NCBI GenBank assembly: GCA_018061035.1
Contig: JAGOUX010000005.1
Span: 1-53,136, forward strand
Origin: Minisyncoccota bacterium
GTDB taxonomy: Bacteria; Patescibacteriota; Minisyncoccia; Phycocordibacterales; UBA9973
Reading direction: 5' to 3'
DNA length: 53,136 bases
In this document: in pieces, positions 3,092-53,136 of the stretch
How positions within the stretch are numbered: the first letter of the stretch is position 1
Layout of the letters: each line of letters starts with the position of its first letter
Position numbers and translations under genes: made by a program
Notes under the pieces: generated by a model
The model's database searches: none
Told to the model about the DNA's origin: nothing
The model's input: only the letters and a program-made list of their open reading frames with translations

Positions 3092-3733
3092 CTATTTTAT
3101 CACAAAGTCTCGGAGCTGTAATACTATCGGTGCTACTACCTCGTCTGTGATATCTTCTGGTTTTATTTTAGAAAATGAGAAAATCTGCTTCTCTATTTCC
3201 ATCAATGAGTTAAGAACATTGTCATGCCCCAACTCTATTACATCATAATTTTTATGATATCTCTTGGCACCTTCTTCCAAGCGGCCCTTTATGGAGACAA
3301 TATTTTTAGGCGCCACTCGCTGGTCTACATAAAAACAAATCTTTTTATTCAAGTCTTCTGACTCTAGATTCTTCTTCCAGTTTGGAAAACCGAAAGTATC
3401 AATATAGGGCATCAGGTCTTCCCTGCCTACTTCTTTTACAATCATCCGAGTGGCTTCTGTCTCGTTTTTGCCATATTTATTTATGTATTCATCCTTTACG
3501 TTCTGCCAATATGGCACTCCTTCCGGCTCGAATGTTTCTGGATAATATGTCATATCTATTTTGATAATGTTACCCATGTCGTGGAGTAGACATGTAGAAA
3601 GGATATTTTCTCTGTCTACTGGCACATTCATAGAATCGCAGACTATCTGCGCCACTGCTGCCACACGAAGCATATGCAATTGCAGGAAAGGTAAAACTTT
3701 ATACTCGGTATAAATTTCACTTATGGTTTTCAT
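3092..3733 (-). CDS. HD-domain phosphohydrolase
   Basis: A 213-aa HD-superfamily protein with H20 in the first helix, the HD pair H51-D52 in a C-L-L-H-D-M-G-N context, and further helical segments typical of small HD hydrolases acting on nucleotides or nucleotide monophosphates. The ATG follows the ileS stop directly (TAAATG), so it is translated from the ileS transcript and should fall under the same T-box control. The substrate cannot be read from the sequence. Confidence 0.75.
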   Translation of the reverse strand: MKTISEIYTEYKVLPFLQLHMLRVAAVAQIVCDSMNVPVDRENILSTCLLHDMGNIIKIDMTYYPETFEPEGVPYWQNVKDEYINKYGKNETEATRMIVKEVGREDLMPYIDTFGFPNWKKNLESEDLNKKICFYVDQRVAPKNIVSIKGRLEEGAKRYHKNYDVIELGHDNVLNSLMEIEKQIFSFSKIKPEDITDEVVAPIVLQLRDFVIK

Positions 3734-6700
3734 TTATTTTGAGATTTTTACCTTAAATGCCAAGTCGCCTATCTTGATCACTTCACTATCATTCTCTCTG
3801 TACTCAATCTTGGATACCAACACAGTCTTTTTGATTTCTGTTTCGAATTTCTCCACTAGCTTCTGCCCTACTGGTGTAGTGGATATAGATAAAGTCACCA
3901 CCTCGCTCGGAGTGAGGCCCATCTTCTTGCGCATATCCTGCAAGGCTCGCACCAGCTCGCGATAGTCTCCCTCTTGCTTGAGCTCGACTGTGATATTAAT
4001 ATCAAGACCAAAATCTCCGACATTGTACTCTCGCACATTGAGCTCGTCTTTGATGATCTCTACATAGATATCAGGCACTTTTGGACCAGTGGCACTAGCG
4101 AGGGGCTGGCGGACAGGGATATTCTTCTGTTGTCTTTCTTTGAGAAGTGCAGACACTATCTCTCTAGCCTTGGTCATATCGTCTACTACAGTGGTCTTGG
4201 TGCCAAATATTTTCTGCAAAAATCCAGGGAGGACTGTCCTTCCTGAACTAGGCCATACTGCCAAATGCACAGACTCTTCGTCTTCTTCTATCTTCAATTT
4301 TTGCCAGACATCTTCTGCAGTAAATGGCGCAAATGGAGCCAAGAGCTTGGATATAGTCTTGAGAATAAAATACAAAGTTTGTTTTGCTTCTACCTCCCCG
4401 TCCTTTATCCTGTCGCGACTTCGGCGTAGGTACCATGTAGAAAGCTCATCGATAAACAAATCTATCGGCCTAGTAGCCTCAGCCATATCATAATTTTCCA
4501 TTCCTTTTGTAGTCTCCGCCAGTATTCCCTCTAAGCGGGCCAAGATCCACTGGTCTAGAATATTTTTGGATGTTGACCTTATATTGTTCTCAATATTTTT
4601 ATCTCTGTAGAGCTCGTAAAATGCAACGACGTTATAAAATCTGCCGATTATTTTACTTGCAATATCTTGTACTGACTTTTCGGTAAAGTTTGCATCCTCT
4701 CCTTTCATAAGTGGTGAAGACATCAAATACAACCTAAGAGCATCTACTCCGTATTTATCTATGAATACCCATGGATCTGGATAATTGTTCTTAGACTTAG
4801 ACATTTTCTCTCCGTCTTCTGCTCGCACTGTACCAGTCGTCACCACATTTTTAAATGCAGCTTCACCAAAGAGCATAGTGGACACAGCATGTGTGTAGTA
4901 GAACCAAGTTCTGGTCTGCGCAATATATTCTGCAATGAATCCTGCGGGGAAATTGTTACTCTTCCAATTCTTATTTTCAAATGGATAGTGGTCCTGGGCA
5001 AATGGCATGGAGCCAGACTCAAACCAGCAGTCTAGTACCTCCGGAATTCGATTAACTATTTCTCCACACTTACAGACCATCTCTATCTCATCTATATATG
5101 GGCGGTGTAGATCAAGCTCATAATTAGCATTGTGTGGAAACGGCACAAAATTAATATCTCGAATAGCAGCATTTGGTAGATCATCTAGATGACTATTGTT
5201 GGTATCATCTATCATCTGATAAGTCTCTTCCATCGTAAACATGTGAGCACCCGCACTCATCAGCCACGCAGGTGAACCATGGGTGATAAATAATATATTT
5301 TTATTCTTATATTTATTCTCTACATCCCACAATACCTGCATCACTCGCCTTTTCACATCCTGATATGACTCATCGCCATCTCTTTTTGAAGTAAAGTATT
5401 CTTTAGTCTTTGGAAATACATCATGATATTCCTTCCATGTCTTACCTTCAAAAGAATGTACACCAAGCTCTGAAAGCCTTTCATCTATGACCATATCGTT
5501 GGCGGACAAGCCTAAAGCTTTGCGCACTATTTCTGCTGTCTCCTTGGTACGAAGAAATGGGGAAATGATTAATAAATCAATTTTTTTATCTTTGAGCTTT
5601 AAGGCAGCCTCCAACACCTGCTCTTTGCCATGCGCAGTCAGCTTGTCAGTATTTTTTGCATATGAACTTATACCCCAATTTAAATTGTGAGTAGATTCTC
5701 CATGCCTCATGACAGTGTAAGTATTTCCAGACTTCTTAGTTTTATCTTTCAAATCCTGAATAGAGCTTGCAAAAATTTTCTCCTTGCATTTTTCGCATTT
5801 CCAAATAGGCAATGGGCTCGCCCAATACCTATTGCGAGAGATATTCCAATCTGGTGCATTCTCTACGATATTTTTGAATCTTCCCTCTTTGAGGTGTGCT
5901 GGTACCCAGTTGATACTATCTGCTTCTCTGACTATATTTCCTTTTTCCTTCGTGATATTGATAAACCATGATGGTAACGCATAGTAGATTATAGGTGTGT
6001 CACAACGCATACAGTGCGGGTATGAGTGCATTATTTTCTCCTTATCAAAATATGCATTACTCTTTGGGTCTTGTAGGTATTTAATGATTTCGATATCTGT
6101 ACGAAGGTGCGCATCCTTATCCTCGGGTGTATCTTTTGGTTTTACCTTTAGGCCCTTGAAGTCTGTGACCGCATCCACAAATCTACCTTGCACATCTACA
6201 TGAGTGATCCAAGGGATATTGTTTGCTTTTGCTAGGACCATGTCTTCTTCACCAAAAGCTGGTGCTTCGTGAGCAATACCAGTACCCTTCTCAGTAGTCA
6301 CAAAATCCGCATGCCACACTTTATAAATATTTTCTTTATTTGGCATTACTGCATCTTTGTAATACGGAAAAACTGGTTTGTATTTTTTACCAACCAAATT
6401 ACTACCTTTCATTTCTTCTAATACAGTGTATTTCTTATCTTTAAAAACATTCGCCAGATTATCCTTGGCTAATATATAGACTTCATCATCCATTTTGATC
6501 TTGGAGTATACAACATCTTTATTGACTGCAATTGCTGTATTACCTGGGAGTGTCCACGGAGTAGTAGTCCAAGCTACAAGGTATGTACCTGGCTCGTCTT
6601 CTAGCTCAAACTTTACGTAAATAGAAATATCCGCTATATCCTTATAGCTATTGTCCATCGCGATTTCGGAGTTTGCGATCGGAGTCTCACATCGTGCGCA

Positions 6701-16084: not shown

Positions 16085-16688
16085 GGATAAATTTCAAGAA
16101 ATAAAATTCAATATTGGAGAGCTAAAGGGTATCTCAGCTAAAAACATCGAGGAACATCTCAAGCTCTATGCTGGCTATGTAAAGAACGCGAATATGGTCA
16201 TAGAAAAAATAAGCTCCCTGAGTGCTGAATTTTTTGGCAAAGGAGTGGACAACTCTTACCTTATAGGTGAGCTTTTTAGACGCTTTAGCTTTGAGTACAA
16301 TGGTATGCGCAACCACGAAATATACTTCAGCTCTCTCTCAGGAGGTCCCAAACCCCTACCCACAGGAAGTATGCTAGAAAGAAAGATGATAGAAACATGC
16401 CAATCTATGGAGATATTTCTGATGGGTTTTAAAAACATAGCTCTCACTCGTGGAATAGGCTGGGCAGTTCTCTGGTATGACAAAAAAGATCAAAGACTTA
16501 TTGCTTCCTGGGTAGACGAGCAACACTTAGGCCAACTAAATGGTTGTGAGATGATACTTGCTCTAGATATGTGGGAGCACTCTTATGTCGCAGATTATAT
16601 GCCGAGTGGAAAAAAACAATATGTGGAAGATTTTTTTGCTAATTTAAACTGGGAAGTAATTGAAGAAAACTTTAAAAAGGCTTTGTAA
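16083..16688 (+). CDS. Fe/Mn superoxide dismutase family protein
   Basis: A 201-aa protein matching the Fe/Mn-SOD fold: all four metal ligands are present at H25, H78 (R-N-H-E), D162 and H166 (D-M-W-E-H-S-Y). It dismutates superoxide to oxygen and hydrogen peroxide; the metal cannot be decided from sequence. The sequence is divergent around the N-terminal helix pair. It lies on the opposite strand between the two ComEC parts, and its 3' end overlaps the comEC channel gene by 17 nt. No signal peptide is present. Confidence 0.85.
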   Translation: MDKFQEIKFNIGELKGISAKNIEEHLKLYAGYVKNANMVIEKISSLSAEFFGKGVDNSYLIGELFRRFSFEYNGMRNHEIYFSSLSGGPKPLPTGSMLERKMIETCQSMEIFLMGFKNIALTRGIGWAVLWYDKKDQRLIASWVDEQHLGQLNGCEMILALDMWEHSYVADYMPSGKKQYVEDFFANLNWEVIEENFKKAL

Positions 16689-18147
16689 AAAACTTTTTTA
16701 TAACTCCACCGAAGAGTCTGTATATAAAATACAGATATATTATTAGTGTTAGCCAAAGAGGAAAATTTGGGAAAGATAGAGCTGCAAATGGAACATGCGA
16801 CAAAAAGCTGATCACTCCGAGTTCGTAGTGGAGAAATAGATACGAAATATATCCCACCGGTACGGCCAATATATAGAAAACAAGGCCGAGAATACCTGTC
16901 GCGAATCCGAGAATCATTGTAAATGGAATAAATGGCAGAACTAAAATATTTGCCGGCAGAGCAACCAATGATAAATTACCCATTTTATATAGAACGAACG
17001 GCAATACAAATATGTACGCCGCAAAAGTTACAGCGATAATATCCCGAAGACCGAATTTTTCTGGCACCCAGAGAAAATATTTCTCAACGCGGGGCGCTAG
17101 GAATATCACCGCGACTGTCGCTATAAAAGAAAGCTGAAATGAAACATCGAACACCAGAAGAAATGGATTGACCAATATCATAAGTACTGCTGCCAGGAGG
17201 AGAACTCGAGCCACATCATAATTGCGTCCAGAGGCGCGAGCATATAATGCCAATCCCGCCATTATCCCCGCTCGAATAGCGGTAGAACTTGCTCCAGTCA
17301 TAAGTATGAAAAGGATGACCGACATCATGCCCATAAATGTAGCGAAGCCTATTGGCAAAAACACAAATAATCTCATGAACCATTCTGCTACAATCGTAAT
17401 ATTGTAGCCTGACAAAGCAATGATATGGATAGTGCCAGTATCGACGAAACTTTGCCGGAGAGACTCGTCGAACGAAGACTTCTCCCCTAATATCAGTCCG
17501 CCCATCAATAAACTCTCTGGACTCCGAATAGCGAAATTAACTTTCTCCAAAAATTTCTCTTTAATCGAGAATAAATAACTTTTAATAAAATTACCATTAC
17601 CTCGAGAGATGATTTCCACCTTTGGGAAGTCTATTAGATAAAGGATATTGTCTTTGCGGAGATAATTTATATAATCGAATTCCTTGCCTTGCTCTGTGAT
17701 GAAGTTTGCAGGCTTTTCTAATTTGCCTTCGAGTGCCAATTCATCTCCGTAGGCCACATCGTCTACTAGGTTCACACTTGCTAAAATATTCACTATTTCA
17801 CCCTCTACATCAACCTCAACATTTATTTTTTTGTTATTTTCCTTCAACTCCGGTTCATCTACGACTTCGCCTACCAGTCGAACCTTCTCTCCAACATATG
17901 ATTCGAAGATCTGAGGAGGCGCAACATCTCTCATCTGAAATCTAACGACTCCACAAGAAAATGTAATCGCAAAACAAGCCATCAATATCCCCCACTTATT
18001 CCTGGAAACGAACACAGAGAAAATTAAGGTTCCGAGAGCAATGACTCCAAAAACCAAGGCAAGATACATACTAAAAGAGAAATACGAGCGTACAAATACC
18101 CCGACTATAAACCCAAAGCATATTGAATAGAAAACTCTATCCTGCAT
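16672..18147 (-). CDS. comEC: ComEC/Rec2 DNA-uptake channel (N-terminal and competence domains)
   Basis: A 491-aa polytopic membrane protein. Two N-terminal membrane spans are followed by the soluble DUF4131-like OB region (about 80-185), then the competence domain with its hallmark T-G-T-I-H-I-I-A-L-S-G-Y-N segment and G-A-S-S-T-A-I-R-A. Many hydrophobic helices follow. The protein stops before the MBL domain present in full-length ComEC, which is encoded by 15129-15998. With the type IV pilus genes nearby it suggests natural transformation. It follows rnhA by 11 nt. Confidence 0.92.
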   Translation of the reverse strand: MQDRVFYSICFGFIVGVFVRSYFSFSMYLALVFGVIALGTLIFSVFVSRNKWGILMACFAITFSCGVVRFQMRDVAPPQIFESYVGEKVRLVGEVVDEPELKENNKKINVEVDVEGEIVNILASVNLVDDVAYGDELALEGKLEKPANFITEQGKEFDYINYLRKDNILYLIDFPKVEIISRGNGNFIKSYLFSIKEKFLEKVNFAIRSPESLLMGGLILGEKSSFDESLRQSFVDTGTIHIIALSGYNITIVAEWFMRLFVFLPIGFATFMGMMSVILFILMTGASSTAIRAGIMAGLALYARASGRNYDVARVLLLAAVLMILVNPFLLVFDVSFQLSFIATVAVIFLAPRVEKYFLWVPEKFGLRDIIAVTFAAYIFVLPFVLYKMGNLSLVALPANILVLPFIPFTMILGFATGILGLVFYILAVPVGYISYLFLHYELGVISFLSHVPFAALSFPNFPLWLTLIIYLYFIYRLFGGVIKKFFTKPF

Positions 18148-31530: not shown

Positions 31531-31611
31531 AATATAAAAATTATATCAAATTAACAGACTATAAGGAATTGCAATATTAAAAAATGTGGAAAAGTCTCCC
31601 TAAACGCAATT

Positions 31612-31673
31612 CAGGGCCAAGCAAAGCTTGACCCTGATAAGTGATGTGCCGGGAAGTAAAAATATTTCCCCGG
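31612..31673 (-). terminator. Two tandem hairpins after the cassette A gene
   Basis: On the minus strand, CCGGGGAA/TTCCCGG (31649-31673) and CAGGGTCAAG/CTTGGCCCTG (31612-31636, one G-T wobble) follow the TAG stop. T-runs are short, so termination may be imperfect. The tandem-hairpin layout is shared with cassettes B and C. Confidence 0.55.
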
Positions 31674-31684
31674 AAAAAGAACAA

Positions 31685-32668
31685 CTATCTGATCGGCGGA
31701 GGCGTGAGACCTCCACAGAGCAGACCGAGAGCAATTGCATCTACGGATGCAGTGCTCGAGAACTGAGCAACCGAGCGGTCATCGTGAACCCGCTTTGTTT
31801 TCAGTTTCAGCTTGAGGGCCATGGCGACGATATCAGATTCCTCAGGAGAAAGATCCTGAGAATTGAACCACGTCATGCTCATGACTCCCACACCTTCGTG
31901 ATGCGCAAAGCCGAGGGTGTGCAGGATTTCGTGAAAGAACATAGTGCTGGCAAAGTACTTGCCAACCCAGCTCAAATCACGAACTGTGATGCGAGACCTT
32001 GAAACGTAGCCGTTTGCATCAAACTCAAGAATCTGAGCCTGAGCAAGAGCAGCGCTTCCAGTTGCATCGTTCGTCGTGGGACCTTCAACGACCTCGATCT
32101 TTACCGAGCCTTGTCCCCCGATCTGAGTCGGGAAACCCGTCCTGCTCTGAATAAGAGCAGCGGCTTTGGCGAGATCCTCGAGAGGCATTCCGATCGCGCT
32201 GATCGAAATTGTGGCTCCAGGAGCCAAACGCTGAAGATCGTGCGCGCTGCCGTTGCCGAGATTGCCAGCATCGACTGCATAAAGCATCTGCTCGGCCTTG
32301 GCGATTGAGTTCCCGTTTCGAATCGGAAACAACTCGAAGCCAGTACGCGAGTACCAGTTCGTGTCATACGGGAAGTAGCCATTGGCTTCAACCCGAATCG
32401 ACGTACCCACCGCCGCGTCGATCGTGGCAGTACCACCAGAAACCGGCACCGAAATGCCAGAAACCTGGATGCTACCGTTGACCGGTGCGCCAGTAAATGC
32501 GTCGGTGATTCCGGCCACGCTCTTGAGCGTCGTGCTCACGGGCGTAACGTTAGTCACCGGGGTCTGAGTCGCCGAGGGCGACGTTGGTGAACCTCCGCAA
32601 GCAGCGGAGAGAAGGGCGAAGGCGACCACGAGGGTCGCGATCGCAAACTTCACGAAATTGCGATTCAT
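31685..32668 (-). CDS. Cassette A: metzincin-type zinc metalloprotease lipoprotein
   Basis: A 327-aa lipoprotein. A signal peptide ends in L-L-S-A-A-C, placing the lipidated cysteine near residue 23. A transthyretin/carboxypeptidase-regulatory-like domain (about 50-110) precedes a protease domain with the metzincin motif H-E-I-L-H-T-L-G-F-A-H and a methionine soon after (V-M-S-M). It likely acts on proteins outside the cell. The start at 32668 has AGAGG upstream; the frame extends further upstream but only into the leader and promoter. GC content and codon use are far above neighbouring genes, which points to transfer, and the lipoprotein style suits a diderm donor. Confidence 0.8.
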   Translation of the reverse strand: MNRNFVKFAIATLVVAFALLSAACGGSPTSPSATQTPVTNVTPVSTTLKSVAGITDAFTGAPVNGSIQVSGISVPVSGGTATIDAAVGTSIRVEANGYFPYDTNWYSRTGFELFPIRNGNSIAKAEQMLYAVDAGNLGNGSAHDLQRLAPGATISISAIGMPLEDLAKAAALIQSRTGFPTQIGGQGSVKIEVVEGPTTNDATGSAALAQAQILEFDANGYVSRSRITVRDLSWVGKYFASTMFFHEILHTLGFAHHEGVGVMSMTWFNSQDLSPEESDIVAMALKLKLKTKRVHDDRSVAQFSSTASVDAIALGLLCGGLTPPPIR

Positions 32669-32731: not shown

Positions 32732-32760
32732 ATTATACTCCTTTAAAGAGTCTTTGTCAA
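32732..32760 (-). promoter_or_regulatory. Consensus sigma70 promoter of cassette A
   Basis: Minus strand: -35 TTGACA (32755-32760), 17-nt spacer, -10 TATAAT (32732-32737). Both boxes match the consensus exactly. The predicted start near 32725 gives a leader of about 57 nt with a GAAGAGG Shine-Dalgarno. Confidence 0.85.
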
Positions 32761-32796: not shown

Positions 32797-32920
32797 GTCG
32801 AATATCTTTTTAGGCTTATTACATAAGGTTTAAATTCCCAAAACAGTACTTTTTTGGCTCCTTTTATCCCCTTTTTGGGAAGCCAGAAGTTCCCAGGAGT
32901 TCAAATAATTGGCCGATTTA

Positions 32921-32949
32921 TTGCTTTTGCCTTCTATATATGGTATGTT
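32921..32949 (+). promoter_or_regulatory. Promoter of the nusA transcript
   Basis: -35 TTGCTT (32921-32926), 17-nt spacer, -10 TATGTT (32944-32949). The predicted start near 32956 gives a leader of about 95 nt. Confidence 0.55.
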
Positions 32950-32961
32950 TATACATATGAG

Positions 32962-32990
32962 TCCTGTCCGAAACAGGGCTTTTAATTTTT
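32962..32990 (+). terminator. Attenuator-like hairpin in the nusA leader
   Basis: CCTGT and ACAGG pair around a 5-nt loop and are followed by GCTTTTAATTTTT, close to an intrinsic terminator. It lies inside the leader just after the predicted start, so it could set read-through into nusA, whose product affects pausing and termination. Autoregulation is inference. Confidence 0.45.
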
Positions 32991-33052
32991 AAAATTTAAT
33001 AAAAAGTGATGTTGGATCAAAGAAATTTGTTCAATAACCACTAAAAATCAAT

Positions 33053-34246
33053 ATGTTAGACCTAAAAACATTCAAATCAGCGTTAGAACAATTGGAAGAA
33101 GAGCGAAAAATCCCTAAAGAAAAGATACTCGATGCCATCGAGCAGGCTATGGCTGCGGCATACAAGAAAGATTACGGCAAGCGCGGACAGATAATCCGAG
33201 CTAAATTTGATATGGAAACTGGCCAAACCAATTTCTATCAGATCAAAATCGTTGTTGATGAATCTATCGCAAAAATAGAAGAAGATGGTGCAGATGATGC
33301 AAATGTGGAATATTCAGTAAAAGAAGATGGAGATGAGAGAGTTCACTTCAATAGTGAGCACCACATCATGCTCGAAGATGCTAAAAAAATAAAGAAGGGC
33401 GTAGAATTAAATGACGAAGTTGTATTCCCTCTCGATGCCAAGGATGACTATGGCCGTATCGCAGCCCAAACTGCCAAGCAAGTTATAATTCAAAAAATTC
33501 GTGAAGCAGAACGCACATCTATCATTGATGAATATGGAACAAAAGAAGGCGAGATCATCACAGGTATCGTTCAGAAGATAGAGCGAGGAAATGTCTACAT
33601 AGATTTCAATCGAGCTACAGGTATCTTGCCAGGAGAAGAGCAAATTCCTGGGGAATATCTACAACGTGGTTCACGTATTCGTGCATATTTATACTCTGTC
33701 GAGGACACACCAAGAGGTATCAACCTTCGTCTTTCACGAACACATCCTAAATTTATCGAGAAGCTTTTTGCAGTGGAAGCACCTGAAATCGAAAATGGCA
33801 TAGTAGAAATCAAATCTATTGCCCGTGAAGCTGGAGCTCGCAGTAAAATAGCTGTATTTTCAAACGATGATCACATTGATCCTGTGGGTTCATGTGTAGG
33901 CCAAAAAGGTACTCGCGTGAATACTATCACTCAAGAATTGGGAGGCGAAAAGATTGATATCATTCCATGGAGTGAAGATCCTAAGACCTTCATCACCAAT
34001 TCCCTCTCTCCAGCAAAAGTAATATCTATAGATATCGACGAAGCTGAACACAAAGCAACTGTAGAAGTCACCGACGATCAGCTATCTCTAGCTATCGGTA
34101 AAGGTGGCCAAAATGTACGCCTAGCAGCCAAGCTCACTGGATGGAGAATCGATATCAAAGGCGACGGTGCAAAAGCTGAAACCGTAGAGGAAACACAAAA
34201 AACAGAGGAAGCGGCAGAGGAGACAGTTGAAAAAACTGCTGAATAA
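33053..34246 (+). CDS. nusA: Transcription termination/antitermination factor NusA
   Basis: A 397-aa RNA polymerase-binding factor. An N-terminal domain (about 1-150, with a non-standard acidic insertion around 85-120) is followed by an S1 domain (about 165-235) and two KH domains (about 240-375), the second with A-I-G-K-G-G-Q-N-V-R. The tail is glutamate-rich and lacks the acidic repeats of E. coli NusA. There is no Shine-Dalgarno upstream. It is followed by ppa after 15 nt. Confidence 0.95.
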   Translation: MLDLKTFKSALEQLEEERKIPKEKILDAIEQAMAAAYKKDYGKRGQIIRAKFDMETGQTNFYQIKIVVDESIAKIEEDGADDANVEYSVKEDGDERVHFNSEHHIMLEDAKKIKKGVELNDEVVFPLDAKDDYGRIAAQTAKQVIIQKIREAERTSIIDEYGTKEGEIITGIVQKIERGNVYIDFNRATGILPGEEQIPGEYLQRGSRIRAYLYSVEDTPRGINLRLSRTHPKFIEKLFAVEAPEIENGIVEIKSIAREAGARSKIAVFSNDDHIDPVGSCVGQKGTRVNTITQELGGEKIDIIPWSEDPKTFITNSLSPAKVISIDIDEAEHKATVEVTDDQLSLAIGKGGQNVRLAAKLTGWRIDIKGDGAKAETVEETQKTEEAAEETVEKTAE

Positions 34247-37223: not shown

Positions 37224-37820
37224 ATGTTAATACCAACAGTTATAGAAAAATCACAATTTGGTGAACGAGCGTATGATATCTACTCTCGCCTACTACGAGA
37301 GCGCATCGTATTCCTCGCTGGTCCCATCGACGACCACACCGCAAATATTATTATCGCTCAATTATTATTCCTTGAATCCGAAGACTCGAAGAAAGATATT
37401 TCTCTCTACATCAACTCCCCTGGCGGATCAGTAACCTCGACTATGGCAATAGTTGATACCATGAACCATGTACGCCCGGATGTTTCTACTTTCTGCGTCG
37501 GCCTCGCTGCTTCTGGTGCTGCTATCGTCCTCTCTGCCGGGAAGAAAGGCAAAAGATTTATGCTCCCAAACGCTGAAGTCATGATTCATCAACCACTCGG
37601 CGGAGTTGAAGGTCAAGCGTCAGATATCGCGATAACAGCCAAGCATATATTGAAGACCCGAGACAATCTAAATAAATTCCTTGCAAAGAATACCGGCAAG
37701 AGCCCAGCTCAGATCGAGAAGGATGTAGAAAGAGATTTCTTTATGGATGCCGAGGAAGCCAAGAAATACGGAATTATCGATGAAATAGTCACTAAATCCA
37801 AAACTGGAATAACAAAATAG
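37224..37820 (+). CDS. clpP: ATP-dependent Clp protease proteolytic subunit
   Basis: A 198-aa serine protease subunit that forms the tetradecameric chamber of the Clp protease. The catalytic triad is S97 (A-A-S-G-A-A), H122 (M-I-H-Q-P) and D171 (R-D-F-F-M-D), at the standard spacing. The N-S-P-G-G-S-V oxyanion loop is present. No Clp ATPase partner lies in this window. It has its own promoter and terminator. Confidence 0.97.
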
Positions 37821-37828
37821 AAGAATAT

Positions 37829-37864
37829 AAATAAGGACCATGATCAAATGGTCCTTATTTTTTT
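37829..37864 (+). terminator. Intrinsic terminator of clpP
   Basis: AAATAAGGACCAT and ATGGTCCTTATTT pair around a short loop and are followed by further T residues. Confidence 0.9.
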
Positions 37865-37876
37865 GGCATATATAGA

Positions 37877-37905
37877 TTGACAAATATCATTTTTTGTGCT
37901 ATTTT
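37877..37905 (+). promoter_or_regulatory. Promoter of cassette B
   Basis: -35 TTGACA (37877-37882), 17-nt spacer, -10 TATTTT (37900-37905). The predicted start near 37912 gives a leader of about 75 nt ending in a GGAGG Shine-Dalgarno 9 nt before the ATG. Confidence 0.75.
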
Positions 37906-37986
37906 AGCAATAGTTTTTCATTCCGCGTCGGTTGATCTTGTCAATTCTGGCAACTATCAATCTCGCGCATATGGAGGTTCGTCGAC

Positions 37987-38385
37987 ATGAACAAGCTTTT
38001 TGTTTTGATGATGGCTCTCGTTGCGAGCGCTGGCTTGGCTGCTTGCAGTCATAACCCGACACCACAGCTGACGCGCGCCATGGTGACTCCGGTCCTGATT
38101 CAGGACCTCAACCCCGTGTACGACATGGGTACCGTCAGGTCGACCAGAGACGATGTCTTTCTCTGTGGCGAGGTGCGCGCCTTCCGCCCACAGACCGCGG
38201 AAAAGAAAGGCGTGGTCATCTTTACCGACGGGAGCGCCCACGCTCTCGACGGTGCCATCGAGACCAAGATCGAACTCGGGGCTACGTACGTTTTTCGGGT
38301 GGCAAACACGCCACACCCGGAAAACGGGTATCGGGTCCTGGAGACCACCCCGATGAAGAGTTGTGGCGAGACCATCAAGAAGTAG
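37987..38385 (+). CDS. Cassette B: small lipoprotein of unknown function
   Basis: A 132-aa lipoprotein. The signal peptide ends in a lipobox-like L-A-A-C (Cys20), and the mature part is a small beta-rich domain with two further cysteines (near residues 58 and 127) and no enzyme motif. I do not recognise the family. GC content is well above the flanking clpP and rny genes, codons such as CGC, GTC and CTC dominate, and the start has a clear Shine-Dalgarno, unlike backbone genes. It ends in TAG, like the other complete cassettes. Transfer from a GC-richer bacterium is the simplest reading. Confidence 0.7.
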   Translation: MNKLFVLMMALVASAGLAACSHNPTPQLTRAMVTPVLIQDLNPVYDMGTVRSTRDDVFLCGEVRAFRPQTAEKKGVVIFTDGSAHALDGAIETKIELGATYVFRVANTPHPENGYRVLETTPMKSCGETIKK

Positions 38386-38435
38386 CCCTATCGCGGGCGG
38401 AGAGGCGGACGATACCCCCATGGTATCGTCCGCCT
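38386..38435 (+). terminator. Tandem hairpins after cassette B
   Basis: Immediately after TAG comes a small GCCC-GGGC hairpin, then a perfect long hairpin with arms GGCGGACGATACC and GGTATCGTCCGCC (about 38404-38434). No T-run follows. Confidence 0.65.
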
Positions 38436-38462
38436 AGGAAAGTAGTAATTCATCGGATATCA

Positions 38463-38496
38463 AAGCACCAGAAACACCGTTTTCTGGTGCTTCTGT
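38463..38496 (+). terminator. Hairpin with terminator features between cassette B and rny
   Basis: AAGCACCAGAAA and TTTCTGGTGCTT pair perfectly around six bases, followed by CTGTCGTTT. It may be the true end of the cassette B transcript. The rest of the 323-nt gap holds the rny promoter and a possible leader peptide. Confidence 0.6.
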
Positions 38497-38521: not shown

Positions 38522-38550
38522 TAGACAGGTTCCGATATTTTTGGTATATT
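38522..38550 (+). promoter_or_regulatory. Promoter upstream of rny
   Basis: -35 TAGACA (38522-38527), 17-nt spacer, -10 TATATT (38545-38550). It would give a leader of about 150 nt containing a 21-codon ORF. Confidence 0.5.
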
Positions 38551-38606
38551 GATTACGTTGAATTTTAAAAATTATTTCATTTGGTTCACAGGAATATCCC
38601 TATATT

Positions 38607-38672
38607 ATGCAGTTTTTAAAGAGAAATTTTAAGATCTTTGCGGAAATGTTTGCAGGCGAAGTAAAACCCTAA
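38607..38672 (+). CDS. Possible 21-aa leader peptide before rny
   Basis: ATG to TAA encodes 21 residues: a basic, hydrophobic-rich first half and an acidic Gly-Glu-Val-Lys-Pro end. TATATT precedes the ATG directly. There is no Shine-Dalgarno, but backbone genes rarely have one. It could be a small amphipathic membrane peptide or a leader peptide controlling rny. It could also be chance. Confidence 0.3.
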   Translation: MQFLKRNFKIFAEMFAGEVKP

Positions 38673-38708
38673 ATATAGTGGCTGGTTCTTGTAAACTGAA
38701 AAAAGTTT

Positions 38709-40238
38709 ATGAGTACATTAATGATAATCCTAATTAGTGCTGTCGCACTGATTTTGGGCGTGGGAGTAGGATACTATCTCCGTCTGATCATCGCTCTCGG
38801 CAAGAGACGATCGATCGAGATAGACATCAAACAGATGATGGTTGCAGCCAAAGAAGAAGCGCAACGAATCACTGATGAAGCCAAAAAGATTTCAGAGACC
38901 AAACTCTCTGAACTTCGAGAAGAAGAGAAGAAAAAAGAACACGAGTTTAAAGAGACCGAGAAAAGACTCATTAAGAAAGATGAGTTTTTAGACGCGCGTC
39001 AGGTAGAAGTGAACAAGGAAGTGGAAGCTATTAAAGAAAAAGTAGAAGAGATCAAAAAGATCCAAGAGCGAGTGACCAAGGTTGAAGAAGAAAAAAAGAC
39101 TGAACTTGAGCGAGTAGCTAAATTATCTGAAGGCGAAGCAAAAGAAGAGCTTTTGAAAGATATTGAGAAGAAATATGAGGAAGATATCTTGATCAAGATC
39201 CAAAAACTTGAGAATTCTAACGAAGAGAAGCTGGATCGTCGTGCAAAGGATATTCTAGCTACCTCTATTCAGCGCCTTGCATCAAGTACTGCATCTGAGC
39301 TCATGACTACTATTGTTTCAATACCAAACAATGAGATCAAAGGTAAGATCATAGGTAAAGAAGGTAGAAATATCAGGGCTTTTGAACGAGCAGCGGGTGT
39401 AGAGCTCATCGTGGATGATACACCAGGCTCGATTGTTATCTCATCCTTCGATCCTATCCGCAGACAAGTGGCTCGCCTTGCGCTCGAGAACCTCATCCTA
39501 GACGGCCGTATCCAGCCAGCCAAGATTGAAGAATTGGTAGAAAAGGCAAAAGAAGAAATAAATAAAATAATCAAAGAAAAAGGCGAACAAGCGGTATACG
39601 AATGCGGTATATTCAACTTTGATCCCCGCATCGTAGCTATCATCGGTCGCTTATATTTCCGAACAAGCTACGGGCAGAATGTGCTTCAACACTCTATTGA
39701 GATGGCGCACATTGCCGGCATGATCGCTGAAGAGCTCGGCGCAGATGTTGCTATCGCCAAAGCTGGTGCTCTGGTGCACGATATCGGTAAAGCTCTCGAC
39801 CACGAAGTTCAAGGTACTCATATCGAAATCGGTATGCGTATTCTTCAGAAATTTGGTGCAGATGAACGAATCGTTACAGCAATGAAGTCTCACCACGAAG
39901 ACTATCCGTATGAAACTATCGAATCTATCATTGTTCAAACTGCAGACTCTATCTCAGGAGGCCGTCCTGGAGCCCGCAGAGACTCAGTAGAGAACTATTT
40001 GAAGAGATTGGGAGAACTAGAAGCCCTAGTGAATGCCTTCCCTGCTGTCGAGAAGTCTTATGCTCTCCAGGCTGGACGAGAAATCAGAATATTTGTTACT
40101 CCTGAAAAGATTTCTGATGCCGAAGCCAAGCTTATGGCTCGTGATGTAGCAATAAAGATCGAACAAGAATTGAAATATCCGGGTGAGATCAAGGTTACCA
40201 TGATCCGTGAGACAAGAATCACGGAATACGCTCGCTAA
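38709..40238 (+). CDS. rny: Ribonuclease Y
   Basis: A 509-aa membrane-tethered endoribonuclease that starts mRNA decay. It has one membrane span (about 4-28), a long charged coiled coil (35-190), a KH domain with G-K-E-G-R-N at 216-222, and an HD domain with H357-D358. The spacing matches the family. A small hairpin TAAACT/AGTTTA leads directly into the ATG, with no Shine-Dalgarno. With pnp also in the window, this suggests a Gram-positive-like RNA decay system. Confidence 0.96.
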   Translation: MSTLMIILISAVALILGVGVGYYLRLIIALGKRRSIEIDIKQMMVAAKEEAQRITDEAKKISETKLSELREEEKKKEHEFKETEKRLIKKDEFLDARQVEVNKEVEAIKEKVEEIKKIQERVTKVEEEKKTELERVAKLSEGEAKEELLKDIEKKYEEDILIKIQKLENSNEEKLDRRAKDILATSIQRLASSTASELMTTIVSIPNNEIKGKIIGKEGRNIRAFERAAGVELIVDDTPGSIVISSFDPIRRQVARLALENLILDGRIQPAKIEELVEKAKEEINKIIKEKGEQAVYECGIFNFDPRIVAIIGRLYFRTSYGQNVLQHSIEMAHIAGMIAEELGADVAIAKAGALVHDIGKALDHEVQGTHIEIGMRILQKFGADERIVTAMKSHHEDYPYETIESIIVQTADSISGGRPGARRDSVENYLKRLGELEALVNAFPAVEKSYALQAGREIRIFVTPEKISDAEAKLMARDVAIKIEQELKYPGEIKVTMIRETRITEYAR

Positions 40239-49605: not shown

Positions 49606-50538
49606 ATGGCAAATGAGATGGATACTATCAAAAGACAATTCCTGGAGTATATGGAAATCGAAAAAGGCTCCAGCCTAAAAACTGTCGCCAACTATGAACG
49701 CTATATCACACGCTACTTTGAATTTGGAAAAATAAAAAGTGCGAGTGATATCACCGATGAAAGTATCCGCGAATTTCGCCTCTTCCTAAACCGCCAATCC
49801 GGAGTAAAAGTCCGCGGACAGATGGGCAGCACAATGAAGAAGAACACGCAGAACTATTACCTGATAGCACTAAGAGTATTTTTGAAATATCTTATGAAGC
49901 GAGATATTAAGGCCCTCTCCCCTGAGCGCATCGAACTCGCCAAAATCAAAGAAAGAAGTCTGGATTTAATTTCGGGAGACGAACTCGATCGCATGATCAA
50001 GGGCGCGGAGAAAAATCTCCGTGACCGTGCAATACTAGAATTATTCTTCTCTACTGGTCTTCGTGTTTCCGAGCTAGCGTCTCTAAATAGAGATTTGGAT
50101 TTATCAAAAGATGAATTCTCGATCCGCGGAAAAGGCGAAAAAATTCGTGTGGTCTTCCTCTCTGAGAATGCCAAGGATGCAGTACGTGCATACCTAAAGA
50201 ATCGCAAAGATATGGAAGAAGCGATGTTCATCCGAGAACAAAACTTTGGCGATGCTAAAAAGAAAAAAGAAAGTAAGAGTGTTACACTGAGCCGATTAAC
50301 CACGAGAAGTATCGAAAGACTTGTTAAACACTACGCGATCAAGGCTGGCATATCAAAAAAGGTAACTCCACACGTTATTCGCCACTCTTTTGCCACAGAC
50401 CTACTGAGTAACGGGGCGGACATTCGCTCAGTCCAGATGATGCTCGGCCACTCAAACATCGCCACCACCCAGATATATACCCATGTGACCGACAAACAAC
50501 TCCGCGAAGTCCACAAAAAGTTTCACAGCAGAAAATAA
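49606..50538 (+). CDS. xer: XerC/XerD-type tyrosine recombinase
   Basis: A 310-aa site-specific recombinase with the N-terminal SAM-like core-binding domain (5-105) and the catalytic domain. The catalytic residues R153, K176, H256, R259, H282 and Y291 are all visible (H-V-I-R-H-S, L-G-H-S, Y-T-H-V). Its likely job is chromosome dimer resolution at a dif site; no dif site was found here. Cassette C begins only 9 nt after its stop. TAAAAT lies 6 nt before the ATG. Confidence 0.93.
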   Translation: MANEMDTIKRQFLEYMEIEKGSSLKTVANYERYITRYFEFGKIKSASDITDESIREFRLFLNRQSGVKVRGQMGSTMKKNTQNYYLIALRVFLKYLMKRDIKALSPERIELAKIKERSLDLISGDELDRMIKGAEKNLRDRAILELFFSTGLRVSELASLNRDLDLSKDEFSIRGKGEKIRVVFLSENAKDAVRAYLKNRKDMEEAMFIREQNFGDAKKKKESKSVTLSRLTTRSIERLVKHYAIKAGISKKVTPHVIRHSFATDLLSNGADIRSVQMMLGHSNIATTQIYTHVTDKQLREVHKKFHSRK

Positions 50539-50546
50539 CTTCTAAA

Positions 50547-50575
50547 TTGACACTCAGCCTGATCAGGTGTAGAAA
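50547..50575 (+). promoter_or_regulatory. Promoter of cassette C
   Basis: -35 TTGACA (50547-50552), 17-nt spacer, -10 TAGAAA (50570-50575). The spacer contains the palindrome CCTGATCAGG, a possible operator. The predicted leader is about 118 nt and ends in an AAGGA Shine-Dalgarno 6 nt before the ATG. Confidence 0.65.
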
Positions 50576-50699: not shown

Positions 50700-51191
50700 A
50701 TGTACTGGGTCAGAGAGTTTATCTGGAAAAAGGACTGGCCGGAGGGACTACTCACTAAGCTCTCGATGGGAGAGTTTGGCGAACACCGAGTAAGCCTGGA
50801 TGTGCTACGAGTTGTCATCGTGGACAACCGCTTCGGATACATGGAGGTTCGTTTGAACTACGTGAGATCCATGAAGCCCGAAGAATGGAAGTCTGCGAAC
50901 AAACAGTGCGACGAGTTCATTAAAGAGCTTCGTTCGGATCGAATGATTCCGCGGTTCTCGTCGAGCAACCGGTTTTACAAACTCTGGTTCGATCGAGTTC
51001 CGAAACGGGACCTCGAGTGGACCATGATGGAGAAGTACCTGACCCTTGTTCACCCGCACCTCGAGGTCATCGGGGGTCTCGAGCTCGTGAATAAGAAGTT
51101 CTGCGGACACCCTCAGGGTTGGGATTTCAGGCCTGTGCCGTGGAGCGCAAGACTGCAAGAAAAAGTCCTAGCAACGATCAAACACTGCTAG
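50700..51191 (+). CDS. Cassette C: hypothetical 163-aa protein
   Basis: A 163-aa protein rich in Trp, Arg and Lys, with no signal peptide, membrane span or recognised motif. The GC content is clearly higher than in xer and xth on either side, and it has a Shine-Dalgarno, its own promoter, a TAG stop and tandem hairpins. The pattern of aromatic and charged residues suggests a soluble globular protein. I do not recognise the family. An apparent ORF on the opposite strand is a codon-bias shadow. Confidence 0.65.
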   Translation: MYWVREFIWKKDWPEGLLTKLSMGEFGEHRVSLDVLRVVIVDNRFGYMEVRLNYVRSMKPEEWKSANKQCDEFIKELRSDRMIPRFSSSNRFYKLWFDRVPKRDLEWTMMEKYLTLVHPHLEVIGGLELVNKKFCGHPQGWDFRPVPWSARLQEKVLATIKHC

Positions 51192-51200
51192 GCAGCATCA

Positions 51201-51258
51201 CTCCGCTTTCGAGCGGGAGAGGTCCGCCCTCTCTCGTATCGAGGGCGGATTTTCTTTT
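51201..51258 (+). terminator. Tandem hairpins and terminator after cassette C
   Basis: CTCCGC/GCGGGAG (51201-51219) is followed by TCCGCCCTC/GAGGGCGGA (51223-51249) and a T-rich tail. The second hairpin is a textbook intrinsic terminator. Confidence 0.85.
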
Positions 51259-52936: not shown

Positions 52937-52953
52937 TGTCATTTTAATTGACA
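52937..52953. promoter_or_regulatory. Operator O2 overlapping the cassette D promoter
   Basis: TGTCATTT-T-AATTGACA is an imperfect 17-nt inverted repeat (7 of 8 pairs) with the same length and outer bases as O1. Its right half contains the TTGACA -35 box. Confidence 0.55.
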
Positions 52954-53010: not shown

Positions 53011-53136
53011 ATGAAAATTGTGTGCCAATTCTGCCTGAAATCGGCCTCGGCCGTGATTGAAGCCCCATGGGGTAAGGGTTCTGCGGATTACGTGTACCAC
53101 TGTCCGGAACATCGAGACGCGGCGATTGGGTACATC
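53011..53136 (+). CDS. Cassette D: zinc-ribbon-like protein, cut by the window edge
   Basis: The first 42 residues of an open frame running off the right edge. They contain C5-x2-C8 and a later C-P-E-H, the pairs expected of a small zinc-binding domain. A perfect AAGGAGG lies 4 nt before the ATG, unlike backbone genes, and the coding sequence is GC-rich. The function is unknown. It is divergent from the TrmB-like gene and shares an operator-like repeat with it. Confidence 0.6.
   Translation, partial: MKIVCQFCLKSASAVIEAPWGKGSADYVYHCPEHRDAAIGYI

Follow-up and report, generated by a model that had tools for sequence, protein, structure and literature searches.

Gene organization of the clpP–rny region

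The sequence analysed here (the window, 53,136 nucleotides) is contig C16 of a 606-kb Candidatus Nomurabacteria (Paceibacterota/Patescibacteria) MAG, 94% complete with an estimated contamination of 0.7%, labelled G000 and assigned to this group by matches to its trigger factor. On its plus strand, clpP (37224–37820, Pfam PF00574) is followed by its own terminator-like hairpin (37829–37860) and is separated from rny, encoding RNase Y (38709–40238, Pfam PF12072), by a GC-rich single-gene unit at 37877–38492, hereafter cassette B. A preliminary description had assigned to this unit a TTGACA promoter with a 17-nt spacer, a leader, a Shine-Dalgarno sequence (SD), a GC-rich ORF, a TAG stop and two hairpins, and we found all of these elements. 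The promoter (37877–37905, plus strand) is of the sigma70 type and consists of TTGACA (37877–37882), a 17-nt spacer and TATTTT (37900–37905). Six promoter-like sites occur in the 1.8 kb around B, against 3.0 ± 2.0 in shuffled sequences; the B promoter alone is not significant locally, and its significance lies at the level of the class described below. The 81-nt 5′ leader (37906–37986) folds at −20.4 kcal/mol (z −1.9) and carries the SD, GGAGG, at 37973–37977. It is followed by an ORF of 132 aa (37987–38385; ATG at 37987, TAG at 38383–38385) with 58% GC and 73% GC3. The first 3′ hairpin (38403–38435) has a 14-bp stem and lacks a U-tract, the stretch 38383–38445 folding at −34.9 kcal/mol (z −5.4), and the second (38463–38492; 12-bp stem, weak U-tract, z −5.0) is terminator-like. 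Downstream lies the promoter-like site of rny, TAGACA-17-TATATT (38522–38550, plus strand); relatives with an empty site have a similar one.

The B protein possesses a signal peptide with the lipobox LAAC (LVASAGLAAC) and a C-terminal all-beta domain that appears OB-like in a low-confidence model (pLDDT 54), for which Foldseek returned mostly OB-fold proteins with E-values of about 1e-3 to 1e-2. We read it as exported and probably surface-exposed. No relative was found in Pfam, PHROGs, NCBIfam, GTDB contigs, viral contigs, or phage or plasmid records, nor across 79 genomes of the genus, apart from one weak match with internal stops.

The leader of rny (38522–38720) contains an element, AGGAATATTCCATATATTATGAAG ... 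ATATAGTGGC.TGTTCTTGTAAGC, that is conserved in Nomurabacteria clpP–rny gaps and may be a regulatory RNA; no Rfam match was obtained anywhere in the window.

Other cassettes of the window

Three further units of this kind are present. Cassette A, on the minus strand, has its promoter at 32732–32760 (TTGACA at 32755–32760, 17 nt, TATAAT at 32732–32737) and an ORF of 327 aa (31685–32668), whose product has no Pfam match and carries a lipobox, SAAC, together with a zinc-metalloprotease-like motif, HEILHTLGFAHH. Its tandem hairpins (31611–31673, minus strand) were read directly from the sequence at 31649–31673 and 31611–31637. In the interval 32830–33052, upstream of the gene at 33053, a short conserved hairpin (AAAAGCCCTGTT..GACAGGACTCATA, minus strand) was also seen, and the same hairpin precedes the copies of that gene in the relatives L134 and L175.

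Cassette C, on the plus strand, has as upstream neighbour a gene for an Xer-type tyrosine recombinase (49606–50538, plus strand), the only one found in the genome, which adjoins exoIII in many relatives. The promoter of C, TTGACA-17-TAGAAA (50547–50575), begins 8 nt past the stop codon of the recombinase gene and is followed by an orphan ORF of 163 aa (50700–51191) and, again by direct reading, by tandem hairpins at 51203–51216 and 51223–51249 (51203–51249 overall) and a T-run. A fourth GC-rich cassette (TTGACA at 52948, AAGGAGG before the ATG at 53011) is cut by the end of the window, which holds only the part of its ORF at 53011–53136 (plus strand); the 183-aa ORF runs on into contig C4 (1–689, L007), the two contigs overlapping by 263 bp at 99% identity. 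The assembly break inside this cassette perhaps results from strain variation.

A genome-wide class of GC-rich units

We scanned nearly all of the 606-kb MAG for ORFs with GC above 50% and GC3 of at least 0.54, and obtained 33 among about 700 called, mostly orphans scattered singly among AT-rich backbone genes; 495 backbone genes of the same genome served for comparison. An SD of at least 4 nt precedes 88% of the GC-rich ORFs versus 28% of the backbone genes (Fisher 7e-12), the gene calls being rough and the choice of start favouring an SD equally in both sets. Strong promoters are found in 50% versus 8% (Fisher 3.5e-8; 2–3.5% in shuffled sequences), and a hairpin below −12 kcal in the 40 nt downstream in 94% versus 21%. 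The GC-rich genes thus share SD, promoter and hairpin beyond A, B and C, as the preliminary description expected of a common form, whereas two of the traits that it listed are not universal. The TAG stop was rejected as a mark of the class (42% versus 28%), TGA being more telling (33% versus 3%), and two tandem hairpins follow 61% of the GC-rich genes versus 32% of the backbone genes with room for two. Likewise, the statement that backbone genes show almost none of this architecture holds insofar as the signals are rarer among them, but some are present at the frequencies just given.

The GC-rich units have a GC3 of 0.68 (sd 0.064, the set being bounded by the GC cut-off) versus 0.35 for the backbone (within-genome sd 0.068). 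The use of an SD of at least 5 nt rises abruptly, from 4–14% to 54–67%, at a GC3 of about 0.58 and intermediates are scarce, so that these units form a discrete class. Intergenic space of at least 20 nt on both sides surrounds 28 of 32 GC-rich genes, against 227 of 475 in the backbone. Along the unit, GC is about 24% in the promoter, as in host promoters, reaches nearly 50% in the leader versus 28% in host leaders, and returns to the host level 60–80 nt beyond the stop. The leaders of cassettes fold with a mean z of −1.9 (n = 17), compared with −0.8 for the backbone (n = 46), and two of them contain hairpins of about 20 bp.

Lipoboxes are present in 12% of the cassette proteins versus 1% of the backbone proteins, and N-terminal hydrophobic segments in 36% versus 19%. 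A search for signal peptidase II (LspA) gave no PF01252 match in this 94%-complete genome, where the enzyme may be divergent or unassembled; its non-detection, even though cassettes carry lipoboxes, fits donors with a lipoprotein pathway. Recognisable families are few, namely DUF397, Csx3, BACON/PKD, a collagen-like protein (the collagen-repeat protein C8:75859) and a homologue of diversity-generating retroelement (DGR) target genes. DUF397 alone has clear outside relatives, all 29 of its plasmid matches being actinobacterial, with 39–55% identity among the matches listed; A, B and C are orphans. As for the earlier suggestion of one donor, a GC3 as homogeneous as this, in a set bounded by the GC cut-off, leaves room for a single pool of donors, but the DUF397, Csx3, BACON/PKD and DGR-target families point to mixed sources.

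On contig C14 (L017, 3303–4650), two cassettes with unrelated ORFs (3379–3819 and 4059–4549) stand in tandem, and both end in a near-identical (97.8%) 92-nt 3′ element that carries inverted repeats. A long leader hairpin also precedes the second ORF.

Cassette sites in sister genomes

Empty counterparts of the sites of A, B and C were all seen in relatives, as the preliminary description had proposed to look for. Of 57 distinct sequences in which the clpP–rny gap was readable, 28 have an AT-rich gap of 199–370 nt. In further sequences the gap is occupied by a 629-aa gene, by AT-rich inserts (a methyltransferase, toxin-antitoxin-like pairs) or by unrelated GC-rich exported genes of B-like architecture, such as those of L098 (199 aa, plus strand) and L121 (168 aa, minus strand). 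At site C, the TAA of the Xer gene in G003 is followed at once by the TATG of exoIII; at the same point about 745 bp intervene in the window, and the insert begins 8 nt before the −35 box. The genes flanking site A are 238 nt apart in G027 versus about 1.5 kb here. Other GC-rich exported genes lie near site A in L175, L177 and L141; the proteins of A and L175 both have a lipobox and an HExxH motif, yet no alignable shared body. In L177, within the 1.5 kb upstream of the copy of the 33053 gene, inspection by eye also showed a protein resembling REP-associated (Y1) transposases and repeated palindromes, GCAAGAACGGTTCTTGC, both adjoining a GC-rich cassette.

When 19 other cassette proteins were searched in the genus, relatives were found for two only, in a test of absence that is good, not exhaustive, since against its own genome the concatenated query scored some of the candidates but not all. 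The cassettes are foreign in character and absent from sister genomes, and we regard them as acquisitions because their sites are unoccupied there.

Units of the same form are present elsewhere in the genus: about five turned up in forty sampled regions (688 kb) and one to two in half of G062, and G049 yielded seven candidates of mixed architecture in 344 kb. A replication set of 34 ORFs from other genomes, which took in false antisense ORFs as well as genes from genomes of higher GC, gave a pooled SD frequency of 44% and a blurred pattern, with about 10 real cases judged by eye. The form is genus-wide, and this genome is enriched in it. As regards the family of expression cassettes that had been postulated, it stands as a discrete genome-wide class that recurs in independent Nomurabacteria MAGs; its spread by one mechanism is not supported.

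Search for a mobile vehicle

The borders revealed no common motif. Words of promoters, SDs and terminators make up most of the 6–8-mers enriched in cassette flanks, and a common recombination site was rejected, these words being expression signals. Repeats in the downstream flanks show no excess (17% of cassettes versus 19% of backbone genes). Repeated 3′ elements on contigs C14 and C15 were considered as cassette-specific sites and rejected as a general mechanism, since backbone flanks repeat equally often; the 92-nt element of C14 is a remaining curiosity. No integron integrase was found in the 94%-complete genome, whose single tyrosine recombinase is of the Xer type. An attC-like common 3′ site was not found either, the cassettes being mostly singletons with arrays largely absent. 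This genome has no Y1 transposase of the IS200/IS605 or RAYT kind, though Y1 elements of other genomes are possible vehicles. On these grounds (one Xer only, no Y1 transposase, no shared 3′ motif) we rejected integron and Y1 transposon origins. Phage cargo was rejected in turn, as A, B and C have no relatives in viral contigs, and B is missing from phage records and has no PHROG match. Insertion of a retrotranscribed transcript, an idea raised by the rise in GC only after the −10 box, is disfavoured by the promoter lying inside the insert at site C. Spread of the cassettes by one mechanism was therefore not borne out, in view of the unrelated ORFs, the lack of a border motif or excess of flank repeats, and the single recombinase. 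Neither one mechanism nor one donor is demonstrated by these data.

The genome does possess genes for DNA uptake, ComEC being encoded in the window at 16672–18147 and DprA on contig C15.

Origin of the cassettes

Our preferred reading, to which we give a probability of roughly 0.6, is that the roughly 33 GC-rich genes, B among them, were acquired singly by horizontal transfer from higher-GC donors, through transformation, and survive as complete units in permissive gaps. Higher-GC bacterial DNA would enter through type IV pilus/ComEC-DprA transformation, and illegitimate recombination would insert it where a gap between housekeeping genes is permissive. The gene of an SD-using donor, arriving in a mostly SD-free host, would be retained only as a complete transcription unit that spares its neighbours; with only such non-disruptive units kept, the survivors would look alike without a common vehicle. 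Rapid gene turnover would then give each species its own set of cassettes. We infer the uptake and survivorship steps, as well as the source of the cassettes, the latter from composition and architecture, with no donor gene found for A, B and C. Other observations also speak against this reading. Host-like, AT-rich promoters (24% GC) joined to a GC-rich leader are odd for a plain fragment of GC-rich donor DNA, and the start of the insert at site C, 8 nt before the −35 box, is tighter than random fragments suggest. The lack of intermediates, moreover, tells against prolonged, steady influx and amelioration, except where turnover is rapid.

A rival explanation, in line with the preliminary description, is a dedicated mobile system that moves promoter-ORF-hairpin units as discrete pieces by an unrecognised mechanism. 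Such a system would explain a class with homogeneous GC3 and no intermediates, the recurrence of one form in independent genomes at the same sites, the tight start of the insert at site C, and the two C14 cassettes in which different ORFs share a 3′ element. We nevertheless consider it unlikely, given the absence of a common border motif, flank repeats no more frequent than in the backbone, a lone Xer recombinase with no Y1 transposase, the predominance of singletons over arrays, and the fact that no cassette was seen at two sites. Similarly doubtful is the broader proposal that Nomurabacteria exchange promoter-ORF-hairpin units, mostly for orphan and often surface proteins, which are inserted intergenically without repeats or a resident integrase and by a mechanism yet to be recognised. 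The cassettes could instead be native, fast-evolving exported or accessory genes made GC-rich by selection on codon use or mRNA stability. Their enrichment in signal peptides and lipoboxes, their structured leaders and strong 3′ hairpins, and the occurrence of HExxH lipoproteins at site A in both G000 and L175 would suit such an origin; it is improbable in the face of unoccupied sister sites, orthologues nearly absent from the genus, TGA and SD use unlike that of the host, DUF397 and Csx3 members among the cassettes, and an undetected LspA.

A single gene with its own promoter and terminator, divergent GC and an orphan or surface product is also the pattern of phage cargo genes (morons), and the cassettes might be remnants of decayed prophages. 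Tail-fibre and collagen-like PHROGs were indeed matched by single cassette proteins, the latter match being expected for the collagen-repeat protein C8:75859. Of 29 proteins, however, just one matched each PHROG, and B matched none; phage structural genes are absent beside A, B and C, none of which occurs in viral contigs, and B is not in phage records, all of which makes this origin very unlikely. Chimeric assembly or contamination has in its favour that the source is a MAG and that the break between C16 and C4 falls within a cassette. Many separate islands exist, most of them internal to contigs with backbone genes on both sides, the same form appears in independently assembled MAGs, and the estimated contamination is 0.7%; we consider an artefact highly improbable.

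Relation to known systems

Individual gene transfers have been reported in streamlined Patescibacteria genomes, for which pili and competence have been proposed as a route of uptake (Gios et al. 2025, PMC12455944). What that study has in common with ours is single horizontally acquired genes in Patescibacteria. Its method works only where the donor is among the data analysed, and hence misses orphans such as the cassettes described here; by text search, the main text mentions neither promoters nor lipoproteins nor Nomurabacteria. A few keyword searches of the literature found no description of this cassette architecture.

If the transformation reading is right, a streamlined and probably host-dependent bacterium keeps a fast-changing stock of complete foreign expression units, amounting to about 3% of its genome, many of them for exported or orphan proteins that escape donor-based surveys of transfer. 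SD, GC3, TGA stop and promoter would be simple marks for listing such units across Patescibacteria, raising the question of which surface proteins were acquired and from whom, which might reveal hosts. If a dedicated mechanism proved responsible, it would represent a novel type of gene capture.

The cassettes resemble those of integrons in that their small ORFs are unrelated, frequently orphan and each followed by a structured 3′ element, but differ in being singletons with their own promoters, no integrase found and no common 3′ site. With phage morons they share a single gene with its own promoter and terminator (as read here from sequence), deviant composition and insertion between genes; unlike them, they are chromosomal and lie beside housekeeping genes, A, B and C having no phage context or relatives. 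A likeness to DGR target genes concerns one cassette only, C8:63434, which is homologous to a target-like gene of G027. This genome has an RT gene on contig C1, for which no template repeat was identified. In G027 (L071, 1–2200), an apparent DGR (RT, Avd and template repeat, RT and Avd being identified by eye) lies beside the GC-rich target-like gene, which itself has a perfect TTGACA-17-TATAAT promoter.
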